This document shows, piece by piece, positions 6,026-19,307 of a stretch of DNA of 46,471 nucleotides; the stretch's first letter is position 1; every line of letters starts with the position of its first letter. Location of the stretch: contig JARNMJ010000032.1 in the NCBI GenBank assembly GCA_029432795.1, forward strand, positions 1 to 46,471, in the 5' to 3' direction. Under the pieces are notes generated by a model that ran no database searches, was not told the DNA's origin, and was given only the letters and a program-made list of their open reading frames with translations. Source of the DNA: Pontiellaceae bacterium B12219. Its GTDB lineage: Bacteria; Verrucomicrobiota; Kiritimatiellia; Kiritimatiellales; Pontiellaceae. The position numbers and the translations under genes are program-made.

Positions 6026-9000
6026 TTATTTCGTATAAATATTCAGTTTATAAAACAGGTGATCCGGTGTCGTCGCGCGGGGCTCCAACAGCACCTTGTC
6101 ATATGCTTCGCCCAGTTCACCGACAGGCAACGGATTTGCCACTGTATAAAATTCCGTATACGGATACCAGTTCGTTAGATCTTCAGAAACCAGCACTTCC
6201 ACGCCCAGCCCGGCCTGATTATAACGATAATACGAAAAGGCAACATCGGCCGCATTGGTTTGAATCATGGAAAAGGACGGTACAGAGTCAATCGCATCCG
6301 GATTACTGCCCAGGGTCTGCTCGATAAAATTACTGACGCCATCGCCATCACTGTCGTCCTTTCCGCTGTGATTCAAATTGCCGAAGACATCCATCTCATA
6401 GCTGTCGACCAGATCATCCTCATCGCTGTCCACATCGGTCCATGCAGCCGGACGCACATTTATAATCAGCTGCAACGCTTCATTCTGATCGGGCGTCGAC
6501 GGATCATCGTTTACTGAAAAGGCTGACCCCACATTACCCACCGGATCAAACGCGATGCGGAAGCCATAATTGGATACGGTTCCGTCAATCCACCCTTCAA
6601 CAATCGATGTGACGTCAAAACCGGCATCAGTTCCGGGAATGCCTGCTGTACCGCTGAAAAATCCTGAGGATCCCACCGGCGTTCCGAAATCGCCGTTATT
6701 TCCAAATACAAACGCATCCGCAACGCCGGTGCCGTTAAAGGAGGGATAACTTCCCGCCGTGGCAGTCCAGCTTTCGGTTACACGCGCCAACTGGAGGTCC
6801 TGATCATAAAGTGAATTGAGCCGGTCAAACTGGTGAATACGCAGTCGCGCGCTCTCAAACCCGGCTGGAACAGCACTCAGATCAAATTGCAGAAAGAGCC
6901 GGGTTTTTAATTCATACTGATTGGATAACCGGGAACGAACATACAGGGGGCCGGACGAAGTCCAACTGCCCACCGCCGCAGGATCATTGACCGTTCCGTT
7001 ATACCCCGCCAACTGAACAACAGATGGACTCAATTCAATTTCACCGCTGCTCCCGGAAGGAACTGAACCGGCATTATTGGGACTTGTAAACACCGACAGC
7101 TCAAAGTCATCGTCCGCCCCGTCCGCATCCGTATCTGCACTCAGCGGATTCGTTCCCCAGATCAATACCTCATCCCCGTCGGGAAGGCTGTCCGCATCGG
7201 AATGCGGGCTCATCGGAAGCGTTCCATAGGTCTTCACTTCATCATAATCGCCCAGACGGTCATCGTCGGAATCCGCATCGACCGGACTGGTTCCAATCTC
7301 ATATTCCTCCAGATTGGTTAAGCCGTCCGGTTCCAGATCGCCGGGGGCATCGGATGGATCATCCCGATCAAGCCCTTCGTAGGCGTTCTCATAATAATTG
7401 GCGATGCCGTCCTCATCACTGTCAATAGGCGGGACATTGCTGTCGCCGTCGATTCCATACGTGGTATTTCCGCGAATTTCATTCAACAGGGCATAAAGCT
7501 CCGCTTCTTTTTCGAGATCGGCCTGTGTTGCAGAAAGCAACCGATTCGTCCGTTCACCGGGATCATCCAGCAGATTAAACAGCTGCTTCGGAGATCCGAA
7601 CACGGTTCCGCCAATACCACTGATATAATTGTTATCCGCATCATAGGTTGCCGTGTATCCCCCGCTGCCGGTTCCATCGATCAGTTTCCACTCCCCGTTC
7701 TTATCCACAATCGCCAGCTGCCCGTTCATAGAATGCTGAATAATTCCTTCCCGGCGATCTTCCGGCATACTTTCCCCCAGCAGAATCGGCAGGAAGCTCT
7801 CGGAATCGGGGGCTTCATCGGGCGTGAAATCATAGCGCAGATATTCCGCCATCGAGGCATAAAAATCCCCCTGCCAACAGGCAAAGTCACTGGTGCCCGG
7901 CGTAACCACACCCGGCCAGCGAACCAGATACGGAACGCGGGTGCCGCCTTCCCAATTATCGCGTTTAACGCCGCGAAACGCTCCGTTCCCATCGTGCTCC
8001 GGCAAGCTGTTATCCTGCGCAATCCGTTCGATTCCATTGTCGCTCGAAATAAAAACCACGGTATTGCTCACCAGGCTGTCATCGGTCAGCGGATTCCCAT
8101 CCGGATCTTCCAGAGCATCCAGAATCTGCCCCGTATAATGATCGGTCTGAACCAGATAGTTTCCATATGAAAAAGAGGTCGCATTGGTAAATTCCGCCTG
8201 TAATGCCCAGGGATTGTGCGGTGCAGGCATTGGAATATAAATAAAGAACGGTTCCTTATCCTCCCCCCGAGCCTGAATGAGTTCCGCAACCTTAGCCGCC
8301 TGAACCTGCAGATAATCCGCCACCACAAAAGTAGGATCATAAACACCGGGCCTGATAGTTCCGGTAGAATGAGCGGAATTAACCGGGGCGCCTTCCAACA
8401 GATCCGCATTGGTTGCCGCAACCGCCTGGCTGAAATCAACCGCTCCGTTGGTCACGATGCCGCCTTTAAACAACACCGTGTCATTTTCAATCCAGACATA
8501 GGGAGGCATATCAAGCGAAGCCGCGGTTCCGAAAAAATAATCAAACCCATGATGATACGGCGTACTGGTCAGGGCATGAGAAAAATCAATCCTGTCACCG
8601 GATGTCGTCGCAGGATCATTATCCAGAACATTCGTATTATTCACCAGGTCGTCGACCGGTTCCCCCGCCGGATCATAGAACTGCATGCCGATATGCCATT
8701 TGCCCACCATGGCGGTTTTATAGCCCAGCGACTGAAACATCTTTGCAAACGTAAAGCGGTCATCTTCAATCAATGAGGGCGTATAGCCGCCATTCACTCC
8801 GGTTTTCAATGAAGTCCGCCAGCAATACCGCCCCGTCATCACCGCATACCGCGACGGCGTACAAACCGCATCCGCTGAATGCCCCGCCGTAAACCGCATG
8901 GCACCTGAAGCAAAGGTGTCCAGGTTGGGAGTGAGCGAAGTCTGGGCGGTGTCATACACCCCCATATCGCTGTAGCCCATGTCATCATAATAGATCATGA

Positions 9001-9070
9001 TCACATTAGGATTTGCCAGGCTAAGGATCGGTAGAAAAGTTCCCAAAAGCAGGATTGATCTAATCGTCAT
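6026..9070 (-). CDS. Large modular secreted sulfatase with DNRLRE-type domain
   Basis: The start is ATG 9070, preceded by AGAGGA; an open frame continues 11 codons upstream without a better site. The 1,014-aa product has a signal peptide (1-20), then an S1-type sulfatase domain to about residue 460. That domain has metal-binding 'YYDDMGYSD' and the formylglycine signature C70-T-P-S-R, whose cysteine an FGE-type enzyme would convert. Later motifs 'GKWHIGMQ' and 'SSDNGIE' fit. Asp-rich TSP3-like repeats follow (about 545-670), then a roughly 200-aa beta-sandwich matching the DNRLRE/CBM96-like pattern ('LFLQFDLSAVPAGFESARLRI', 'FDVTSIVEGWIDG'), more Asp-rich repeats and a terminal 'VEVLVSEDLTNWYPY' module. 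It is roughly twice the usual sulfatase length. The additions suggest attachment to a glycan or the cell surface. It is probably transcribed from the promoter at 9137-9165 together with the esterase downstream. Confidence 0.88.
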   Translation of the reverse strand: MTIRSILLLGTFLPILSLANPNVIMIYYDDMGYSDMGVYDTAQTSLTPNLDTFASGAMRFTAGHSADAVCTPSRYAVMTGRYCWRTSLKTGVNGGYTPSLIEDDRFTFAKMFQSLGYKTAMVGKWHIGMQFYDPAGEPVDDLVNNTNVLDNDPATTSGDRIDFSHALTSTPYHHGFDYFFGTAASLDMPPYVWIENDTVLFKGGIVTNGAVDFSQAVAATNADLLEGAPVNSAHSTGTIRPGVYDPTFVVADYLQVQAAKVAELIQARGEDKEPFFIYIPMPAPHNPWALQAEFTNATSFSYGNYLVQTDHYTGQILDALEDPDGNPLTDDSLVSNTVVFISSDNGIERIAQDNSLPEHDGNGAFRGVKRDNWEGGTRVPYLVRWPGVVTPGTSDFACWQGDFYASMAEYLRYDFTPDEAPDSESFLPILLGESMPEDRREGIIQHSMNGQLAIVDKNGEWKLIDGTGSGGYTATYDADNNYISGIGGTVFGSPKQLFNLLDDPGERTNRLLSATQADLEKEAELYALLNEIRGNTTYGIDGDSNVPPIDSDEDGIANYYENAYEGLDRDDPSDAPGDLEPDGLTNLEEYEIGTSPVDADSDDDRLGDYDEVKTYGTLPMSPHSDADSLPDGDEVLIWGTNPLSADTDADGADDDFELSVFTSPNNAGSVPSGSSGEIELSPSVVQLAGYNGTVNDPAAVGSWTSSGPLYVRSRLSNQYELKTRLFLQFDLSAVPAGFESARLRIHQFDRLNSLYDQDLQLARVTESWTATAGSYPSFNGTGVADAFVFGNNGDFGTPVGSSGFFSGTAGIPGTDAGFDVTSIVEGWIDGTVSNYGFRIAFDPVGNVGSAFSVNDDPSTPDQNEALQLIINVRPAAWTDVDSDEDDLVDSYEMDVFGNLNHSGKDDSDGDGVSNFIEQTLGSNPDAIDSVPSFSMIQTNAADVAFSYYRYNQAGLGVEVLVSEDLTNWYPYTEFYTVANPLPVGELGEAYDKVLLEPRATTPDHLFYKLNIYTK

Positions 9071-9136
9071 TTTATTCCTCTTAGTAGTAGTTAATCTGAA
9101 CATCCAATCTCAGAAGGATCTGTCACTAATAGGCTT

Positions 9137-9237: not shown

Positions 9238-10296
9238 CTACTTTAGACCGGAGCAGGATGAATTCGGGGGATTGATCCGGAAAAGGCAGGAGTGGCTTCC
9301 ATCGCCTCCGGTCAGATTTACACCCGATGCCAGATAGAGATATGTCGGATGCCCATCCTGCAGAAGCACCTGGGGACGCTCCATTTTTTTACTGCGCAAT
9401 ACCTTGGATCTGGAGAGCAACTGCTTATCCAGATACTGACTCATTTTATCGTACCCCAGAATGGGCTCGGAAAAATGAATTCCATCATCCGATGGCCAGA
9501 GATAGCCCGTTCCAGCTTTGTTGTCCGTGGTCAGAAGATATATCTTTCCATTCTCATAAAAAGCATACCCATCCTCAATCGTCGTTGAATTGCTCGTTAA
9601 CGGTTCAGGTATAAATTCATACGGTCCCTCAACCTGATCAGCAACCGCAACCCCCATGCGCCGCACATCACCCTTTCTCATTGCCTTGTAGTACAGGAAA
9701 AACCGGCCGTCAGGATGCGCTAAGAGTGCCGGGTTATTCACCCCGACCGTCGATTGGTAACTCCAGATGGAAGGGTCGGCCGGAGACGCAAGAATCATCC
9801 CATCATTTCCCACTTTTTTCCATGGGCCTTCGGGCCGGTCTGCAATCATCATTCCAATCCGCTGTGAAGCAACCTGTTCCTGTTTCACTCCGCCGCCATT
9901 GGCAATGTAGGTGAGTACATAACGTGCCCCCACCTTTTGGATTGTGGGATTATGCGGAGACTGAAAATCCCAGCTTCCTTCTTTCCCGCTCCCCTTCACC
10001 ACGACCTCCTGAAAGACAAAGGGGCCTTCCGGGCTGTCACTCACATAGCGGGCAATTTCGCAATGGGTTAACCAGGCCTTGAATTCTTCTTTGAGCGGCC
10101 AGCGCGCAACAAAAAGATGCGTCTTTCCTTCCGGTCCGATAACCGGACTGGACCCCCAGACATGATAATCCGGCTCCTCCACCGCAACCCCGGCATATTC
10201 CAGACGATCCGCCCAGGATCGATCGGGTTGTTCTTTACCGGAAACCGTGACCGCACCGATGAACAGCCCCGCGAATAACATCCATTTTACCTTCAT
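9238..10296 (-). CDS. Secreted GH43-like five-bladed beta-propeller hydrolase (paralogue)
   Basis: The start is ATG 10296, with AAGGAA six bases upstream; an in-frame TTG at 10314 is not used. The 352-aa product has a signal peptide (MKVKWMLFAGLFIGAVTVSG) and the same blade order as the protein at 2550-3602: 'HVWGSSPVIGPEGKTHLFVARWP', 'HCEIARYVSDSPEGPF', 'SPHNPTIQKVGARYVL', 'GVNNPALLAHPDGRFFLYYKAM' and 'TIEDGYAFYENGKIYLL'. The central part has diverged more than the first third, suggesting related but distinct substrates. It is monocistronic, with its own ECF-type promoter at 10407-10435. The exact glycoside hydrolase family and linkage cannot be fixed from motifs. Confidence 0.75.
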   Translation of the reverse strand: MKVKWMLFAGLFIGAVTVSGKEQPDRSWADRLEYAGVAVEEPDYHVWGSSPVIGPEGKTHLFVARWPLKEEFKAWLTHCEIARYVSDSPEGPFVFQEVVVKGSGKEGSWDFQSPHNPTIQKVGARYVLTYIANGGGVKQEQVASQRIGMMIADRPEGPWKKVGNDGMILASPADPSIWSYQSTVGVNNPALLAHPDGRFFLYYKAMRKGDVRRMGVAVADQVEGPYEFIPEPLTSNSTTIEDGYAFYENGKIYLLTTDNKAGTGYLWPSDDGIHFSEPILGYDKMSQYLDKQLLSRSKVLRSKKMERPQVLLQDGHPTYLYLASGVNLTGGDGSHSCLFRINPPNSSCSGLK

Positions 10297-10406
10297 ATTT
10301 ATTTCCTTTATCAATCACTAAAACTTCATTCGCATGGAAGCGGCTGATGCACAACCACACACGATAAGTTAATCCCGTCTCGAAAATTGATTCCGCATAT
10401 ATACGT

Positions 10407-10553: not shown

Positions 10554-12935
10554 TCATAAATTAACCGATTTATTTTTTTCGATCTTCACGTTCTTCGTTT
10601 TATCGCCATAGCGAACAACACAGGGATTTCCCAATTTGGAATGCAGCGCAGCCGATGTAAGGACGCCATTTTCCCACTCCATATCGACTTCAAATCCGCC
10701 CCTGGCGCAAAGCCCCTTAGCGGAGCCATTCGCCCAGGCTTTAGGTAAGGCGGGGAGCAGAACGATTTGTCCCGCATGGGATTGAATCAGCATTTCGATC
10801 ATGCCCGCGGAGGCGCCAAAGTTGCCGTCGATTTGAAATGGAGGATGTTTATCAAAGAGATTATTGTACGATGATTTTTTGAACAGCAGGCCGATATTTT
10901 CATGCGCCTTTTCCCCTTCCATAAACCGCGCCCGGAAGTTGATAATCCATGCCCGGCTCCAACCGGTATGCCCGCCGCCATTCGCGAGCCGGTGTTCGAT
11001 ACTTTTCCGCGCGGCTTCCACCATTTCCGGACTGGTATACATGTTGTACTGCCTCCCCGGATAGAGCCCATACAAATGGGAGATATGGCGGTGCCCTTCA
11101 TCACTCTCCGTCAACTCCTCGGTCCATTCCATAAGCCGCCCATCCGATCCAATCCGGGGCACAGCCAACTGATCGAGCGCACACTGAACGGCCTGGGTAA
11201 AATCATCTTCCACACCCAATATCTGCGCGGCCTCCAGCGTATTGTTAAATACATCCCATATAATCTGCTGATCCATTGCGGGGCCCATCGTCAGACTGCA
11301 CTCCGCCTGACTTCCGGGCATAAAGAATTTATTCTCTGGAGACGTACTCGGGCCGGAAACCAATTTACCCGTTTTTGGATCTTCAACCAACCAATCAAGA
11401 AAAAACAGCGATGCTTCTTTCAAAACCGGATACGCGCGATTTTTCAGAAACATCCGATTTCCAGTGAATCGATAATGTTCCATAAAGTGCTGTGTGGCCC
11501 AGGCACCACCGACCACCCACTGCCCATACTGAACGTTTCCGGAAGGAGCCGTCCCATGCCAGACATCGGATGCATGGCCCGCAAGAAAACCGCCGCAACC
11601 ATACAGATCCCGCGCAGTTCTTTTTCCTCCCGGAACCAGTCGTTCGATATAGTCCATAAACGGAAGATGACATTCTGAAAGGTTGGCTGTCTCCGCATGC
11701 CAATAGTTCATCTGCATATTGATGTTCAGATGATAATCACTGTTCCAGGCCCCTTTTATATCTTTACACCAGATTCCCTGAAGATTAGCCGGCAAGCTGC
11801 CGGGTCGGGACGATGCGATTAAAAGATATCGGCCGTATTGGAAATAGAGTGCTTCAAAGTCGGGATCAACCTCCCCGTTCTTATACCCCTCCAGTCTGGC
11901 CACGGTTGGCTTGGTTGATGGGGACCCAAGTTTCAGCTCAACCCGGCGAAAAAGGGATTGATGCGATTTGATGGAATCGGCCTTCAACGCGGCGTACCCT
12001 TTCTGCATGGCTGCAGCAAGAGTGCTGTCGCATTTTTTCGTTAAATCATATGTGAACGGATGATCTGTATCGTTCCGGTTGTAGTCGGTGGCGGCAGCAA
12101 TGTAGAACACGACGGAATCCGCGCCCTTGACAGTCAACACACCGTCTTTCGCCTCCGTAGATCCATTTTTTGCGACAACCTTGTAGACCGTTACAAACTT
12201 GACGCCCAGATGCGACTTTCCATGCGAGGCCTGGCCGGTTGCAATCAGTGTGTCGATTCCATTTGTTTTGACTTCAAATATGCCCTCCCGCTCAACACGG
12301 GAACGAAACGAAACAGAGCCGGGTTTGTCCGCCGAAATGTTGATAACAATAACCTGATCCACCGGGCTCGAGCTCACTTCACGGATATAATTAACCCCCT
12401 TACTTTTATATCGGGTCGTCGCAACAGCTGTATCAAGATCCAGCGATCTTCGGTAACCGGACACTTTTTCAACCGGGCCGAAATCAAAATAAAGTTCCCC
12501 CATCGTTTGATAGCTTCGGGGAGAAAAGCGCCCCGGCAAAATCGCCTGTTGCTTTTTCTGCGCCTGAACGTATTCCCCGTCAAACAGGAGCTGTCGCACT
12601 TCATCAATCGTGCTCCTTACATTTCCTTCAACCTCGGGAATCGGCGGACCTGCCCAAATCGATTCTTCATTGAGCTGGATAATCTCCTCGGAAACACCGC
12701 CATAGACCATCGCTCCAAGCCGACCGTTTCCAACGGGCAAAGCCTCCTCCCAGTGTGTTGCAGGCAGGTTATACCACAAAGATAAAGGCTGAACTGGCGG
12801 CTTATTCAGAGGCTGTACTCTTGCCGTTTCCTTGTAGTTCAATTTCTTCTTGGAAGCGGCCTCTGCATCCATGCCGAAAAAAAACGCCAGACTCATTAAC
12901 AGCGTCATGTTTAGGTTAATGAATCTCTGGTTCAT
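10554..12935 (-). CDS. Secreted GH95 family glycosidase, probable alpha-L-fucosidase
   Basis: The 793-aa product has the usual GH95 length and motifs. After a signal peptide comes the family's opening block '[28 protein letters not shown]...[16 protein letters not shown]'. The (alpha/alpha)6 barrel contains '[10 protein letters not shown]' near residue 405, with the two Asn that help activate water. '[10 protein letters not shown]' near 533 has the presumed general-acid Glu, and '[14 protein letters not shown]' near 702 has the Asp base. GH95 enzymes invert alpha-1,2-L-fucose or alpha-L-galactose linkages. The secretion signal places it outside the cytoplasm, consistent with sulfated-fucan breakdown alongside the two sulfatases. 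AGGAAA precedes the start. A divergent copy of the regulon promoter lies at 12999-13027. Confidence 0.9.
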
Positions 12936-13136: not shown

Positions 13137-14573
13137 TTAAGGATGCCAGGGTGTGTTTCCGCCTTTCTCGCGGAGAAACCGGGCATCGACCGATTCATAC
13201 CAGGTATGCAGGCGCTTGCGCATCTGCTCCACCTTCTCAGGATATTTCGCCGCCAGATCGTTCCGCTCACCGATATCCCGCTTCAAATCATAGAGGTGTA
13301 CCCGCCCGTCTTCATAGCGCTCCACCAGTTTATAGTCCCCCTCACGAATGGCCCCGCCGGGAAAGCCGCCCTGATTCGCATAATGCGGATAATGCCAGAA
13401 GAGCGATTCCCGGTTCAGCGTCCCGCCCTTGAGCGCGGGCAGCATATTGATTCCGTCAATATCGTGTTTCACGTCAGCTCCAGCAGCCGCCGCGACCGTC
13501 GGGAACAGATCGATTGAGCAGATCGGTTCGGCACTGATCGAATTCGGACGGGTAACCCCGGGCCAGCGCACGATCCACGGTTCACGAATGCCGCCTTCGT
13601 AGACCCATCCTTTCCCGCCTCGCAGCGGAAGGTTGCTCGTCGGCGATCCTTCCGACGTGGAAAGCCCCCCGTTATCGGAGGTAAAAATAACGATGGTACG
13701 GTCAGCCACGCCCGAATCTTCCAACTGTTGGAGAACCGTTCCGACCGCTTCGTCCATCGCCTCCACCATGGCGGCATAAACCGCGTGCTTCTGCAGCACG
13801 CGAACATTGCGCGGCTTGTTCGTCGGCCAAACCTGTTCTTCTTCAGCAAATCCATCCCCGGAAACTTGCGCGGCTTTCTCTTTATATTTTTCCACCAGAT
13901 CGGGGCGCCCCATCAGCGGTGTGTGCACGGAGTAGAATGCGAGATAGGCAAAGAAGGGTTTGTCTTTATTCTGTTCAATGAAGCCGGCGGTTTCCCGCGC
14001 CAACCGGGCAGGAAGATGTTCCCCTTCCGGGCTTTCTTCTTTGATTTCCGGATTTTTAAACGGTGCGAAGTATCTACCCCCGGTATACGGCCCGCCCTTT
14101 TTCCACCCGCCGATGTTGACGTCGAAGCCCCGATTCTGGGGATAGTATTCCTCGGACTCCCCTAAATGCCACTTTCCGGCAAAGAAGGTGGCATAGCCCT
14201 GAGCCTTCAACACCTGTGCAATGGTGATTTCATCCAGCGGCATGTTGTGGTTCAAAGGAGCCGGATTAAATGTTGCTGCCCTGTTTTTACCTCCGAAGAA
14301 ATGGGTCGCCCGGGCGCGGGTCGGATATTTTCCGGTCATCAGGCTGTAGCGCGTGGGAGAACAGACCGGATTGGCGGCATAGCCATCCGTGAAGCGCATT
14401 CCCGATTTCGCCAGCCGGTCGATATTCGGCGTGTCATAGAAGCAGTTCGGGTTATTGGCCCCCACATCCATGTAGCCCAGATCATCCACCAGAAAAACCA
14501 CCACATTCGGAGGTGCACTTTCAACCACCATAGCCGACAAATAAAACAGAATTGCAGCAACAAACCTTTTCAA
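13137..14573 (-). CDS. Secreted S1-type sulfatase
   Basis: The 478-aa product has a signal peptide (MKRFVAAILFYLSAMVVESA), the N-terminal metal site 'FLVDDLGYMDVG' and the formylglycine signature C71-S-P-T-R. Downstream motifs are 'GKWHLGE', 'FTSDNGG' and 'LPLRGGKGWVYEGGIREP', all typical of family S1 sulfatases that desulfate carbohydrates. Unlike the sulfatase at 6026-9070 it has no accessory modules and ends soon after the catalytic domain, with 'WHYPHYANQGG' and 'DGRVHLYDL' near the C-terminus. It needs a formylglycine-generating enzyme, and none is encoded in this window. It appears to be transcribed singly from the promoter at 14605-14633, 32 nt before the start. The substrate is unknown; context suggests a sulfated fucan or related algal glycan. 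Confidence 0.92.
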   Translation of the reverse strand: MKRFVAAILFYLSAMVVESAPPNVVVFLVDDLGYMDVGANNPNCFYDTPNIDRLAKSGMRFTDGYAANPVCSPTRYSLMTGKYPTRARATHFFGGKNRAATFNPAPLNHNMPLDEITIAQVLKAQGYATFFAGKWHLGESEEYYPQNRGFDVNIGGWKKGGPYTGGRYFAPFKNPEIKEESPEGEHLPARLARETAGFIEQNKDKPFFAYLAFYSVHTPLMGRPDLVEKYKEKAAQVSGDGFAEEEQVWPTNKPRNVRVLQKHAVYAAMVEAMDEAVGTVLQQLEDSGVADRTIVIFTSDNGGLSTSEGSPTSNLPLRGGKGWVYEGGIREPWIVRWPGVTRPNSISAEPICSIDLFPTVAAAAGADVKHDIDGINMLPALKGGTLNRESLFWHYPHYANQGGFPGGAIREGDYKLVERYEDGRVHLYDLKRDIGERNDLAAKYPEKVEQMRKRLHTWYESVDARFLREKGGNTPWHP

Positions 14574-14726: not shown

Positions 14727-16790
14727 CTAATCGCGGATTTTAACCGTCACCGTTTCCGGCAACTGCGAAAGCTGTTCCGTCGAAAACTGATCGGGGGAAA
14801 TGATGAGCGTCCTCAACGAGGTAAACAGATTGATCGGCTCCAGATCTGTTACCTTGGTCCTGCGAATATCCAGCGATTGAATAGGGAGCGACCTGATCTG
14901 ATTCAGATCACAGAGACCGGTTCTCTGAGCATCCAATGACCGGATATTCAGGAAACGCAACGGGCTTTCTCCGGAGCTCTGCTCAGAAGACATTGCAAAT
15001 TGCTTCAACTGGTCTCCGCGCAACAGCAATGATCCTCGATCAGGATTATATTCAAACCGACCCTTGGTCCACCGCGTATTCCAACCTGCGAATATCGCAC
15101 GCACGACTTTTTCATATCCGGTCCGGTCCTCGCGCAACTCATTATCGCACACGAGCAATTTTTCCATTAACGGTTTCCAGCTGGTTTTCGATGCATGAAT
15201 ATCGCCAATCAAATCCGCCAGCTGATCAATACTTAACAGGTCGCCCGTCTTAAGCGCTTCATATTTACGGCTAAGCTCATGCAGCCACACACGCCCCCCA
15301 TTATCGAACTCAAAATATTCATTCGCCTGGGCAAAGTCCTGCATGACAAAATAGCAATATCCGATTTGCGACATGCGATAGGGGTTGGGCTCCTCTGACT
15401 GGAGAAATTTATAACGTTGAATCGACAGTTCGAGCGCCCGGATAGGATCCGAGTAGATCAAAATCCGGGACAGTTCCAAAGCCTCAAACTCCAGATTGCC
15501 CGCCAGCGTTCCCAACAGGCTCATATTCCGGTTCAGCTCCTTACGATAACGTGCAAGAGCCACTTCGGCCTCCTGTCGCCGACGTTCAGCTTCCTTCCGT
15601 TGAATTTCGGTTTCCTGCTGCTGGCTTTCAGCCAGCTGATACGCTCGACGGGTTTCAACAATGCTGTTCTGAAGTTTCTGAATGAAGAGCGCTGTTGTGA
15701 TCACCACAACAACGACCGCGGTCAGTCCCACCCGGCAGGCCGCCCGATTGCGTTTATAAAACAGCGCCGCTTCCTTAAAGAAACCCGCATTTTCGGCAGA
15801 CGTCGAAAAACCGGAGAGGAAATTTTTCACATCATCGCGCAGCGCTGAAACGGATCCGTACCGATGAGCCGGCTTCAAGGCCAGCGCTTTCATGACGACT
15901 GCATTCAACCCTTTGGGAACCGATTTCTTCGGAAATGCAGAGGCCGGGGAAACCACTTTTCCCGCCAGGGTGAATTCCCGGATCATTTCCGGATCGCCTT
16001 TAAACGGAGGTTGCTGGGTCAGTATGGCATAGAGAATACAACCGAGTGCATAGACATCGGTCTGATAGGTTTTTTCCCCGTTCTTCTCGAACTGCTCAGG
16101 AGCCATATAGCCCGGTGTGCCTTTCAACTCTCCGGACAGCGTCATATTATTGAGCAGGTCTGGGTTAAAAAGTATCGCGTCGAATTCCTGTCCTTCGCTC
16201 TCATCCGCACCGGCAACCTTGCCGAGCCCCCAATCGCAGATAAACACTTCGCCGAAACGTCCGATCTGTATATTTTCCGGCTTCAGGTCAAGGTGCAGCA
16301 CCCGCTGTGAATGCGCATAGGAGATGGCATCGCAAAGCTTGATGAATATTTCCAGCAGCTGTTCCCTGCTCATCCTGTTCTTTTTCAGGATATCAGCCAG
16401 CGAATCACCCCGCTTCAAATCCATGGTAAAGAAAGGCAGTCCATCCGGTGAAAGACCGATATCATGCACGGAAATGATGTTGGGATGCTCCAGCAGGGCC
16501 GTGAGCCGGGCTTCACGCAGAAAAGGCTCGTAAAGCTCCGCCGGTGCATTGACCCGCAGTTCAGCCATCGCCACCTGCCGCCCGGTTTTAGTATCGAAAA
16601 CCCGGCTCACTTTTTTCATGCCCCCGCGGGCCAGCACTTCCGCATCGGTATATCGATCTCCCGAATATCGGAGCTCCGAATAAATAATGCCCTGCCCCTC
16701 CGACGAAACCTCAGCCTCTTCCAGATAGAGCGAAGAGAGCCGCCTCGCCATATCGCCAAACTTATTCTCCTTGGAAGGCGGTGTGTTCAT
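14727..16790 (-). CDS. Membrane-anchored Ser/Thr kinase with WNK-like lysine placement
   Basis: The 687-aa product has a cytoplasmic Hanks-type kinase domain (about 45-330), a membrane segment (353-371), a charged coiled coil (372-420) and an outer C-terminal region of about 265 aa ending in leucine-rich-like segments ('LRFLNIRSLDAQRTGL', 'PIQSLDIRRTKVTDLEPI'). The glycine loop is 'ARGGMKKV' (54-61), and the beta3 motif reads 'VAMAEL', with Ala76 where the ATP-anchoring Lys should be. Other landmarks are E93 (alphaC), H166-L167-D168 with K170 and N173, D186-W-G in place of DFG, and A-P-E at 230-232. Lys59 occupies the third-glycine position, as the catalytic Lys does in eukaryotic WNK kinases, so the domain may be active despite lacking the beta3 Lys. 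The start codon overlaps the sigma-factor stop (ATGA), indicating coupled translation. The outer region could sense a ligand or membrane stress; this is inference. Confidence 0.88.
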   Translation of the reverse strand: MNTPPSKENKFGDMARRLSSLYLEEAEVSSEGQGIIYSELRYSGDRYTDAEVLARGGMKKVSRVFDTKTGRQVAMAELRVNAPAELYEPFLREARLTALLEHPNIISVHDIGLSPDGLPFFTMDLKRGDSLADILKKNRMSREQLLEIFIKLCDAISYAHSQRVLHLDLKPENIQIGRFGEVFICDWGLGKVAGADESEGQEFDAILFNPDLLNNMTLSGELKGTPGYMAPEQFEKNGEKTYQTDVYALGCILYAILTQQPPFKGDPEMIREFTLAGKVVSPASAFPKKSVPKGLNAVVMKALALKPAHRYGSVSALRDDVKNFLSGFSTSAENAGFFKEAALFYKRNRAACRVGLTAVVVVVITTALFIQKLQNSIVETRRAYQLAESQQQETEIQRKEAERRRQEAEVALARYRKELNRNMSLLGTLAGNLEFEALELSRILIYSDPIRALELSIQRYKFLQSEEPNPYRMSQIGYCYFVMQDFAQANEYFEFDNGGRVWLHELSRKYEALKTGDLLSIDQLADLIGDIHASKTSWKPLMEKLLVCDNELREDRTGYEKVVRAIFAGWNTRWTKGRFEYNPDRGSLLLRGDQLKQFAMSSEQSSGESPLRFLNIRSLDAQRTGLCDLNQIRSLPIQSLDIRRTKVTDLEPINLFTSLRTLIISPDQFSTEQLSQLPETVTVKIRD

Positions 16791-17395
16791 ACCGACTCCA
16801 GCTCATTTCGCAGATGCTGGATTTCCTTCATCAACCGTTCCTTCACCCGGTTTTTCAGCTTGGTAACTGAATTGGGTTTCACGCCGAGATGCTCCGCAAT
16901 CTGCGCCGTACTCCTGCCATCGATACTCATGGAAAAGGCTTCGATTGCACGCTCGGAAAACAACGTTGAAATATTATTCAGCGCCAACTGAACGATATGG
17001 ACCTCCCACTCTTCCTGAATAATCTTCTTCACATCAGGCTCTGTAATCATCGGCATATTGTCGATGGTTTCGTCCTCCGCAGCGGCAGCATGTTTGCGGG
17101 TCCGTCGCTGCATTGCCCGAATATGGTCCAGCACCGTATTCCGGATCAACCGGCTCAACCATGTGCGGAACCGCGCACGGTCCTGATCATAGATATGGTT
17201 GGGCAGGCTCTTCCAGATCTTCAGCAGAATCTCCTGCGCCAGATCATCAACATCAACGGAATAGAGATTCATCTGGTGCAGGACCATATAGATGAAATCA
17301 CGGTAATAGGATGCAAACTCCTCCCAGGCCGCATGATCGTCCTGATTCTTCGCCCGCATCAACAGCGTCTGTCTGGTTTGCCATTCTTCACTCAT
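16787..17395 (-). CDS. ECF-type RNA polymerase sigma factor
   Basis: The 202-aa product contains sigma region 2 ('VDDLAQEILLKIWKSLPNHI....RFRTWLSRLIRNTVLDHIR', about 49-95) and region 4 with a helix-turn-helix ('RSTAQIAEHLGVKPNSVTKLKNRVKERL', about 160-187). Regions 1 and 3 are absent, which fits the ECF group. It overlaps the kinase gene by 4 nt, so kinase and sigma factor are made together. Phosphorylation or sequestration of the sigma factor by the membrane kinase is a reasonable inference, since no anti-sigma factor is encoded nearby. It sits directly upstream of the sulfatase/hydrolase locus, whose genes carry a shared TGTCAC-N17-CGTTA element. It is therefore the natural candidate to read those promoters. 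No ribosome site is evident before ATG 17395. Confidence 0.85.
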   Translation of the reverse strand: MSEEWQTRQTLLMRAKNQDDHAAWEEFASYYRDFIYMVLHQMNLYSVDVDDLAQEILLKIWKSLPNHIYDQDRARFRTWLSRLIRNTVLDHIRAMQRRTRKHAAAAEDETIDNMPMITEPDVKKIIQEEWEVHIVQLALNNISTLFSERAIEAFSMSIDGRSTAQIAEHLGVKPNSVTKLKNRVKERLMKEIQHLRNELESV

Positions 17396-18160: not shown

Positions 18161-18574
18161 ATGCATGCATCCAAGCAAATCACATCCACAGCTTCTTACT
18201 TCAACAATGAACCCACCGCGGGGGTTCCCGTGACGGTTCGATTCCGGCACATGCACGGGTCGAAACACGTACTCACCGTGGTGGATCAACTGATGGAAAA
18301 ATTTGATAAATACGCACTGTCGGATGCGCACGCCACAGTGGTTGTGACCAAAACCCGTCACCATGAAGGCAAAGGAGCCTTCGAGGTGAAGGTTCGACTG
18401 GCGGTTCCCGGCGAGCCTCTCTATGTGGCCCGAAGCCGGGAAATGCTGGGCGCTCACGACGGGATCTACCATGCACTGGGCGATTGCTTCGAACGGGTCG
18501 AACGCCAGCTCGTGAAACGCCACGAGCGCCGCATCGCCCGCCGCATCCCCCGCACCTACGAAAATGCCGCCTAA
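18161..18574 (+). CDS. hpf: Ribosome hibernation promoting factor (HPF/RaiA family)
   Basis: The 137-aa product carries one S30AE domain: 'VTVRFRHMHGSKHVLTVVDQLMEKFDKYA', then the beta-strand block 'ATVVVTKTRHHEGKGAFEVKVRLAVPGEPLYVARSREMLGAHDGIYHALGDCFERVERQL' and a basic tail (KRHERRIARR). Such proteins bind the 30S decoding region and promote 100S dimers or block initiation in starved cells. It lacks the long-HPF C-terminal dimerisation domain. The start at 18161 has AAGGAG 8 nt upstream; an ATG 6 nt earlier is out of frame. The sigma-54 promoter at 17832 would control it, matching the classical 'sigma-54 modulation protein' association of this family. Repeats R1a and R1b bracket the gene and could tune its mRNA level. 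Confidence 0.85.
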   Translation: MHASKQITSTASYFNNEPTAGVPVTVRFRHMHGSKHVLTVVDQLMEKFDKYALSDAHATVVVTKTRHHEGKGAFEVKVRLAVPGEPLYVARSREMLGAHDGIYHALGDCFERVERQLVKRHERRIARRIPRTYENAA

Positions 18575-18612
18575 ACCAGGCGCTGAAACAAAAGAGACAA
18601 CTCCAACAGGAG

Positions 18613-18651
18613 ATGAATAAAAAACCCGCCGGGAAGGCGGTTGCCCGTTAA
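18613..18651 (+). CDS. Possible 12-aa micro-ORF (MNKKPAGKAVAR)
   Basis: AACAGGAG precedes an ATG, and the frame encodes 12 residues ending AGKAVAR, the same tail as the 36-aa peptide at 17901-18011. The stop codon lies in the same palindrome. It could be a translated leader for the hairpins downstream, a decayed duplicate of the first peptide, or a by-product of the repeat. Confidence 0.3.
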   Translation: MNKKPAGKAVAR

Positions 18652-18698
18652 CGGGCAACAAAGCCCCTCTTCCGCTTCCATGCGGAGAGGGGCTGAAT
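18628..18698 (+). repeat. Repeat R1b: coding tail plus double hairpin
   Basis: Second copy of R1a. Here TTGCCCGTTAACGGGCAA is a perfect 18-nt palindrome, and GCCCCTCTTCCGC pairs with GCGGAGAGGGGC with a single bulge. No U-run follows, so it may be a processing or attenuation structure rather than a simple terminator. Confidence 0.75.
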
Positions 18699-18743
18699 AG
18701 TTAATCAGGAGTCGAAGGACTCCGTTTTCAGGATAATTACAGA

Positions 18744-19307
18744 ATGGAAGCTTTAAAAGAATCCTGGTGGCTGTTGCCGCTGTTCATTTTTGCGGCACGA
18801 ACAGTGGATGTGAGTCTGGGAACCTTGCGGGTCATCTTCATTTCGCGCGGACATCAATGGCTGGGACCCTTGACCGGATTTTTCGAGATCCTGATCTGGC
18901 TGCTGGCAGTGTCGCAGATTATGTCCAACCTCGATAACTGGATCTGCTTTCTGGCTTATCCTTCCGGCTATGCAGCGGGGGCCTATCTGGGCATGTTCAT
19001 TGAACGGCAGCTCGCACTGGGCTATGTGGTGGTGCGGATCATCCCGAACGGTGAACCGCTCCAGCTTGCCCAATTGCTGCGGGCCGAAGGGTTCGGGGTT
19101 ACGACCGTCAATGCCGAGGGGGCAAACGGCCGGGTTTCCATTCTGTTCTCCGTGGTACGCCGCAAAAAGCTGGCCGGCGTACTGCGGGTGATCCGCAATT
19201 ACCACCACAAGCTCTTCTACACCATTGAAGACGTCCGCCAGACCAGCGAAGGCATTCACCCGGTTCTTTCAGACCGCAGACGAGTGGCCATGCGGGCGGG
19301 CAAATAA
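18744..19307 (+). CDS. DUF2179/DUF5698 membrane protein (YebE/UPF0316-like)
   Basis: The 187-aa product has three predicted membrane helices in residues 1-95 ('WWLLPLFIFAARTVDVSLGTLRVIFISRG', 'WLGPLTGFFEILIWLLAVSQIM', 'WICFLAYPSGYAAGAYLGMFIE'). A soluble DUF2179 domain of about 80 aa follows ('GYVVVRIIPNGEPLQLAQLLRAEGFGVTTVNAEGANGRVSILFSVVRRKKLAGVLRVIR'). The architecture and motif order match the UPF0316 family of Bacillus YebE. The biochemical role is unknown. DUF2179 resembles small ligand-binding regulatory domains, and the same domain ends the YitT-family protein at 26436-27362. It sits between hpf and the DUF1538 gene, likely in the same sigma-54 unit. Confidence 0.82.
   Translation: MEALKESWWLLPLFIFAARTVDVSLGTLRVIFISRGHQWLGPLTGFFEILIWLLAVSQIMSNLDNWICFLAYPSGYAAGAYLGMFIERQLALGYVVVRIIPNGEPLQLAQLLRAEGFGVTTVNAEGANGRVSILFSVVRRKKLAGVLRVIRNYHHKLFYTIEDVRQTSEGIHPVLSDRRRVAMRAGK

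Follow-up and report, generated by a model that had tools for sequence, protein, structure and literature searches.

The gene at positions 14727..16790 (minus strand) of the window, that is, of the whole 46,471-nucleotide stretch of Pontiellaceae bacterium B12219 DNA analysed here, encodes a receptor-like Ser/Thr kinase of 687 residues in which the lysine normally found in strand β3 is replaced by alanine and a lysine appears instead in the glycine loop, as in the eukaryotic WNK kinases. This protein belongs to a large family of bacterial membrane kinases with the WNK-type lysine, apparently undescribed so far (the comparison was made without the O'Boyle 2025 kinase atlas, PMC12233097, where a mention is possible). 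Taken as a whole, the data are best explained by a catalytically competent, WNK-style kinase, a reading to which we would give roughly two chances in three. The lysine contacting the ATP phosphates would have been shifted from β3 (Ala76) to the end of the glycine loop, at the start of β2 (Lys59), where it would pair with Glu93 of helix αC and with the α and β phosphates of ATP, while Asp168 would act as the catalytic base, and Asn173 and Asp186 would hold the metals.

The relocated lysine and its family

The kinase domain spans residues 47-318 (15837..16652; like all features below, on the minus strand unless stated otherwise), matches PF00069 with 131 bits and adopts a normal kinase fold in its AlphaFold2 model (pLDDT 79). 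The glycine loop reads A54-R-G56-G-M-K59-K-V61, with a lysine at the third glycine position (codon 16614..16616), equivalent to Lys233 of WNK1, and strand β3 reads V73-A-M-A76-E-L, with an alanine (codon 16563..16565) where the catalytic lysine is expected, at the position of WNK1 Cys250. In the model, Lys59 is the first residue of β2 (model residue 24, strand 24-31), and Ala76 lies within β3 (model residue 41, strand 36-43). The earlier note, made from the letters alone, had described both of these positions and the retention of Glu93 (codon 16512..16514), Asp168, Asn173 and Asp186, and each was found exactly as noted. Lys170 is also present, and two features were absent from its list: the catalytic loop carries HLD instead of HRD (H166-L167-D168, 16287..16295), which makes this a non-RD kinase, and the metal-binding motif is DWG instead of DFG (D186-W187-G188, 16227..16235). 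The protein has the Pkinase fold and the invariant DxKxxN and D(F/W)G motifs of Hanks-type kinases; their β3 lysine is an alanine in 128/128 swapped members. A fold search with the kinase model returned PknB first (Z 30.6), with no WNK among the matches listed, which is uninformative either way, and a search of a viral fold library gave generic kinases only.

Chance or assembly error behind Lys59 and Ala76 is excluded, because the same residues recur in two orthologues (L010 and L011, 71-75% identical), in six paralogues and in all 128 family members. The orthologues and paralogues share the other key residues too, and seven of the eight kinase genes of the host genome carry the swap. Between orthologues, the kinase domain is 83-91% conserved vs 51-62% for the ectodomain.

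A search of genome contigs with the single protein retrieved the two orthologues, a swapped relative at greater distance (L012) and several canonical kinases, and alignment-based genome searches were needed to reveal the lysine-swapped family. For these, a profile built from ten swapped domains was searched against 193 genomes of the class, 388 genomes of the phylum and 245 genomes of the phylum to which a Planctomycetota genome belongs. From the 160 loci retrieved for the reading of key positions, and with 187 kinase domains aligned, mostly from the window's phylum and the Planctomycetota, a simple pattern emerges: 128 domains combine loop lysine with β3 alanine, 52 have glycine with lysine, five have alanine with lysine, two are gapped at one or both sites, and none of the 187 has both lysines or neither. 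Since retrieval used the swapped profile, these counts are not estimates of prevalence, and it is the absence of mixed states that is informative. The covariation of Lys59 and Ala76 that had been proposed as a check is perfect: homologues with a normal β3 lysine do exist, every one of them without the loop lysine, and a search for loss of Lys59 in close relatives found no case.

The swapped domains, with a mean pairwise identity of 45%, occur in about 58 genomes from 16 family-level groups within the window's phylum, and in one genome from the Planctomycetota search (G506). The latter holds nine high-scoring copies, one of which was read and verified (L237); these copies may perhaps stem from horizontal transfer or misplaced contigs. 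In 198 genomes of Actinomycetota no match was found at 1e-66, in a search run without a positive control, so that this is not proof of absence. Two family members (G131:C19:12927-13778 and G173:C24:2180-3049) carry in-frame stop codons and are either pseudogenes or sequence errors.

Residues changed with the swap and the case for activity

Between 80 non-redundant swapped rows and 41 canonical DWG rows, divergence is greatest at columns 76, 59, 167 (arginine to leucine) and 175 (methionine or leucine to glutamine, arginine, histidine or asparagine). The catalytic loop reads HLD in 77/80 swapped rows and HRD or HCD in the canonical relatives, and the metal motif of the swapped rows is DWG in 79 of the 80 and DFG in the remaining one. 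By contrast with these columns, Glu93, His166, Asp168, Lys170, Asn173, Asp186 and Gly188 are invariant in 80/80. The changes form two layers. Lys223 (codon 16122..16124), a basic residue that directly precedes the P+1 loop GT, together with Gly227 and Thr274, is shared with kinases that have HLD alone and thus marks the whole clade, whereas Lys59, Ala76 and Gln175 belong to the swap itself. Residue 175 (codon 16266..16268) is a catalytic-spine position at the base of the adenine pocket (Leu173 in PKA) and is mostly polar in the swapped clade. The HLD-only kinases, with loop glycine and β3 lysine in place (L212:862-4344, L214:596-3874 and L218:817-4155), keep leucine or methionine there, and are possible evolutionary intermediates or reversions.

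In inactive WNK1, the αC glutamate is hydrogen-bonded to the arginine of HRD (PMC1821047). Because this arginine captures the glutamate there, its loss here would free Glu93 for Lys59 and could ease the formation of the relocated Lys-Glu pair; it would also remove the usual dependence on an activation-loop phosphate. The swap is not strictly dependent on HLD, since two swapped kinases (L216 and L219, from genomes G400 and G429) have kept the HRD arginine.

The earlier note had left the choice between a WNK-like enzyme and a pseudokinase open, and the first of these is favoured by the alignments, since Lys59 was gained exactly where the β3 lysine was lost and the other catalytic residues are fully kept. 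In WNK kinases, the loop lysine is necessary for catalysis (PMC1821047). A conserved pseudokinase family, whose members, with or without bound nucleotide, would retain or let go of the sigma factor as allosteric scaffolds and transfer no phosphate, is the strongest competitor, even though we consider it unlikely. The β3 lysine and the HRD arginine are both missing, the polar Gln175 in the spine could make nucleotide binding weaker or different, the host genome with its eight Hanks-type kinases gave no hit for a PP2C_2 phosphatase, and the usual rule, based on the loss of the β3 lysine, would class the swapped kinases as pseudokinases (PMC12599244). However, such a family would have to gain a loop lysine in exactly those sequences without a β3 lysine, with zero intermediates, and keep all other catalytic residues invariant at 45% mean pairwise identity, whereas most described pseudokinase families have also decayed at HRD or DFG. 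None of the bacterial families ActPs1-3, GLW, CP1, DYD and DLHK (PMC12599244), compared by their descriptions, fits the proteins studied here, where the catalytic and metal-binding aspartates are invariant and the lysine is relocated. If the swapped proteins are indeed active, applying the missing-lysine rule to bacterial 'pseudokinases' would wrongly annotate what is perhaps the predominant class of kinases in some bacteria. Two matches to FHA proteins, which are phosphothreonine readers, occur in the host genome, on contig C133 (G000), and count, together with the seven swapped kinases out of eight, in favour of the active reading.

Some enzymes of the kinase fold catalyse other reactions, such as AMPylation in the case of SelO. 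With this precedent, an active fold with altered chemistry or nucleotide may be imagined, in which the swap and Gln175 shift the choice of base or the orientation of the nucleotide, with some other modification of the sigma factor or of a different partner; the co-occurrence of Gln175 with the swap, and the L/M kept by the three unswapped HLD rows, would agree with it. Nevertheless, we regard it as improbable, given that DxKxxN and the metal-binding aspartate are all canonical and that WNK, swapped in the same way, functions as an ordinary protein kinase. A bolder extension of the WNK-style reading, and a long shot, is that the regulatory logic of WNK has been reproduced too: the emptied β3 pocket would bind an ion or small ligand, possibly a halide or another anion, of relevance for marine bacteria, and so gate a non-RD LRR receptor kinase phosphorylating the sigma factor.

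Phylogeny and likeness to known kinases

The origin of the swap was addressed by an IQ-TREE phylogeny of 71 domains, with the trait columns 59, 76, 167 and 175 masked and WNK sequences left out. All swapped rows, together with the HLD-only L212, L214 and L218, form one clade with support 99/95, and canonical DWG kinases outside this HLD clade are its nearest relatives. The free tree requires two changes. As an alternative, the swap may have arisen separately in several sub-clades, but a single origin is not rejected (p-AU 0.397); in a set of 136 rows, with columns 59, 76 and 167 masked, a tree that unites the swapped rows in one clade is 38.8 log units better than the free quick tree. The swap would thus have arisen among canonical DWG kinases, in a lineage in which the HRD arginine also gave way to leucine, and the possible orders are HRD to HLD followed by one swap, one swap reversed in the L212 group, or two gains.

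The closest known relatives are kinases of the PknB type (PknB from Mycobacterium tuberculosis and the PknD model PRK13184): in a profile search of solved structures PknB comes first with 189 bits, followed by the bacterial StkP and PknA, and the PknD model scores 211 bits. They share the layout of N-terminal kinase, transmembrane helix and sensor domain, but keep the β3 lysine, a residue other than lysine at the third glycine position and HRD; the kinase studied here has no PASTA domains. No WNK appears among the best 60 sequence matches to solved structures, the lowest of which scores 94.8 bits.

The likeness to WNK kinases is nonetheless close. In the WNK1 N-lobe, with its sequence checked against PDB chains, the loop lysine and the β3 cysteine (Lys233 and Cys250) are 17 residues apart, exactly as Lys59 and Ala76 are, and BLASTP aligns the two N-lobes with 37% identity over 60 columns, placing lysine opposite lysine and alanine opposite the cysteine of WNK1. 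Both have a loop lysine, a β3 strand without one, the αC glutamate, and the catalytic Asp, Asn and Asp retained as in active kinases. Contrary to WNK kinases, the present family is of bacterial lineage, has alanine instead of cysteine in β3, HLD instead of HRD, and DWG instead of the chloride-binding DLG, and combines a transmembrane receptor layout with sigma-factor neighbours. Since canonical bacterial DWG kinases, and not WNKs, stand closest to this family, the resemblance suggests convergence, so that this solution was apparently found at least twice in evolution. The independent bacterial occurrence that had been proposed is supported in this way by the perfect covariation, by the catalytic residues kept throughout a diverse family and by its bacterial relatives. 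That the family descends directly from eukaryotic WNK kinases, or was exchanged with them, is hardly credible: N-lobe scores to WNK1 are slightly higher for swapped than for canonical members (mean 75.5 vs 66.1), but the best profile matches are bacterial, canonical bacterial kinases are nearest in the tree, and DWG plus HLD stand here against DLG plus HRD in WNK.

In the literature, WNK was regarded by Kannan et al. in 2007 as the sole functional family of eukaryotic protein kinases without the β3 lysine (K72), and in the 2025 review on bacterial pseudokinases WNK is mentioned just as a eukaryotic case (PMC12599244). The former study also noted that, in the CAK-chloro kinase-like family, the positive charge has moved from position 72 to 55 (Arg55, Met72; PMC1821047). 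That shift is alike, but it concerns the choline/aminoglycoside-kinase group, uses arginine rather than lysine, and comes with the replacement of the αC glutamate by phenylalanine. Numerous and diverse in bacteria, the swapped kinases would be a second family to have relocated the lysine, by convergence, and would offer a natural replicate. Such a replicate makes testable whether loss of the HRD arginine is needed for the relocation, whether sensitivity to nucleotides or ions is altered, and in which order the changes occurred, the last of these because members of all three kinds are available, canonical, HLD-only and swapped.

Sigma factor, ectodomain and gene neighbourhood

The kinase gene is translationally coupled to the gene of an ECF-type sigma-70 factor of 202 residues (16787..17395; PF04542, TIGR02937), located directly upstream, whose stop codon overlaps the kinase ATG by 4 nt (ATGA). 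The coupling to a sigma factor suggested earlier therefore holds for the gene studied, and extends to half of the family without being universal: an ECF sigma gene is adjacent to 63/127 swapped kinases (47 upstream and 16 downstream) vs 2/42 canonical ones, and in 30 of the 47 pairs with the sigma gene upstream, the two genes share 4 nt, as ATGA, GTGA or TTGA, in the frame of the kinase. A sub-clade with the loop NEGGMK[AS]I (L088, L090, L093, L103, L105, L106, L108 and L111) has its ECF sigma gene directly downstream and not upstream.

For the sub-group of the family to which the kinase studied here belongs, the output would be the coupled ECF sigma factor, probably through direct phosphorylation. 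Adjacent kinases that directly phosphorylate an ECF factor have been described for EcfP with PknT and EcfK with PknS (PMC8999054, PMC13147305). These ECF43 pairs also unite the gene of a transmembrane Hanks-type kinase with that of an ECF sigma factor, and sigma phosphorylation is their output. However, no lysine swap has been reported for their kinases, and ECF43 sigma factors lack the acidic DAED motif and have a phosphorylatable threonine there, whereas the partner sigma factor here reads DVDDLAQE and an acidic DxxD is typical of the 63 partner sigma factors. Since the acidic motif is kept, the known activation route of ECF43 is not directly transferable, and phosphorylation would act elsewhere, for instance on the linker, or the kinase would act on another partner.

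A single transmembrane helix is predicted at about residues 352-370 (15681..15737; hydropathy 2.3 over 19 residues), followed by an ectodomain (14730..15677) whose AlphaFold2 model (pLDDT 91.9) consists of a helix of 70 residues, likely a coiled-coil stalk, a TPR-like bundle (about 15252-15512) and an LRR-like C-terminus (14730-15119). PDB matches of this model are TPR and LRR proteins with modest Z scores of 8-9.5, and relatives carry LRRs recognised by Pfam (LRR_4) or an F5/8 type C domain. The arrangement, in its predicted sidedness, is that of LRR receptor-like kinases, with the kinase on one side of one transmembrane helix and the LRR region on the opposite one. Another swapped kinase (L084:2851-5085) has an F5/8 type C, galactose-binding-like domain at the end of its ectodomain, which suggests direct carbohydrate sensing in that protein; L095 is alike in the alignment.

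Downstream, the genes on the same strand encode, in order, a sulfatase (13137..14573; PF00884, 201.6 bits), a GH95 enzyme of the alpha-L-fucosidase family (10554..12935; PF22124, 568.8 bits), a GH43 family glycosidase (9238..10314; PF04616, 45.6 bits), a second sulfatase with a CBM96/DNRLRE-like region (6026..9103; PF00884, 125.7 bits), an esterase and another GH43 enzyme. The orthologues have comparable neighbours, a sulfatase and an alpha-L-fucosidase in L010, and a sulfatase and a GH2 enzyme in L011. Since sulfatases are abundant in Pontiella (PMC10880615), this proximity is only weakly suggestive. The ectodomain would sense an extracytoplasmic cue, most likely connected with a sulfated polysaccharide, and the ECF sigma factor would drive the nearby sulfatase and glycosidase genes. 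Control by the sigma factor would then probably serve polysaccharide genes, which points to a receptor kinase/sigma route for polysaccharide utilisation. Scans for promoters and terminators found no signal above chance. The divergent neighbours, at 18161-19307 of the window on the plus strand, encode an S30AE ribosome-hibernation-type protein and a DUF5698/DUF2179 protein.
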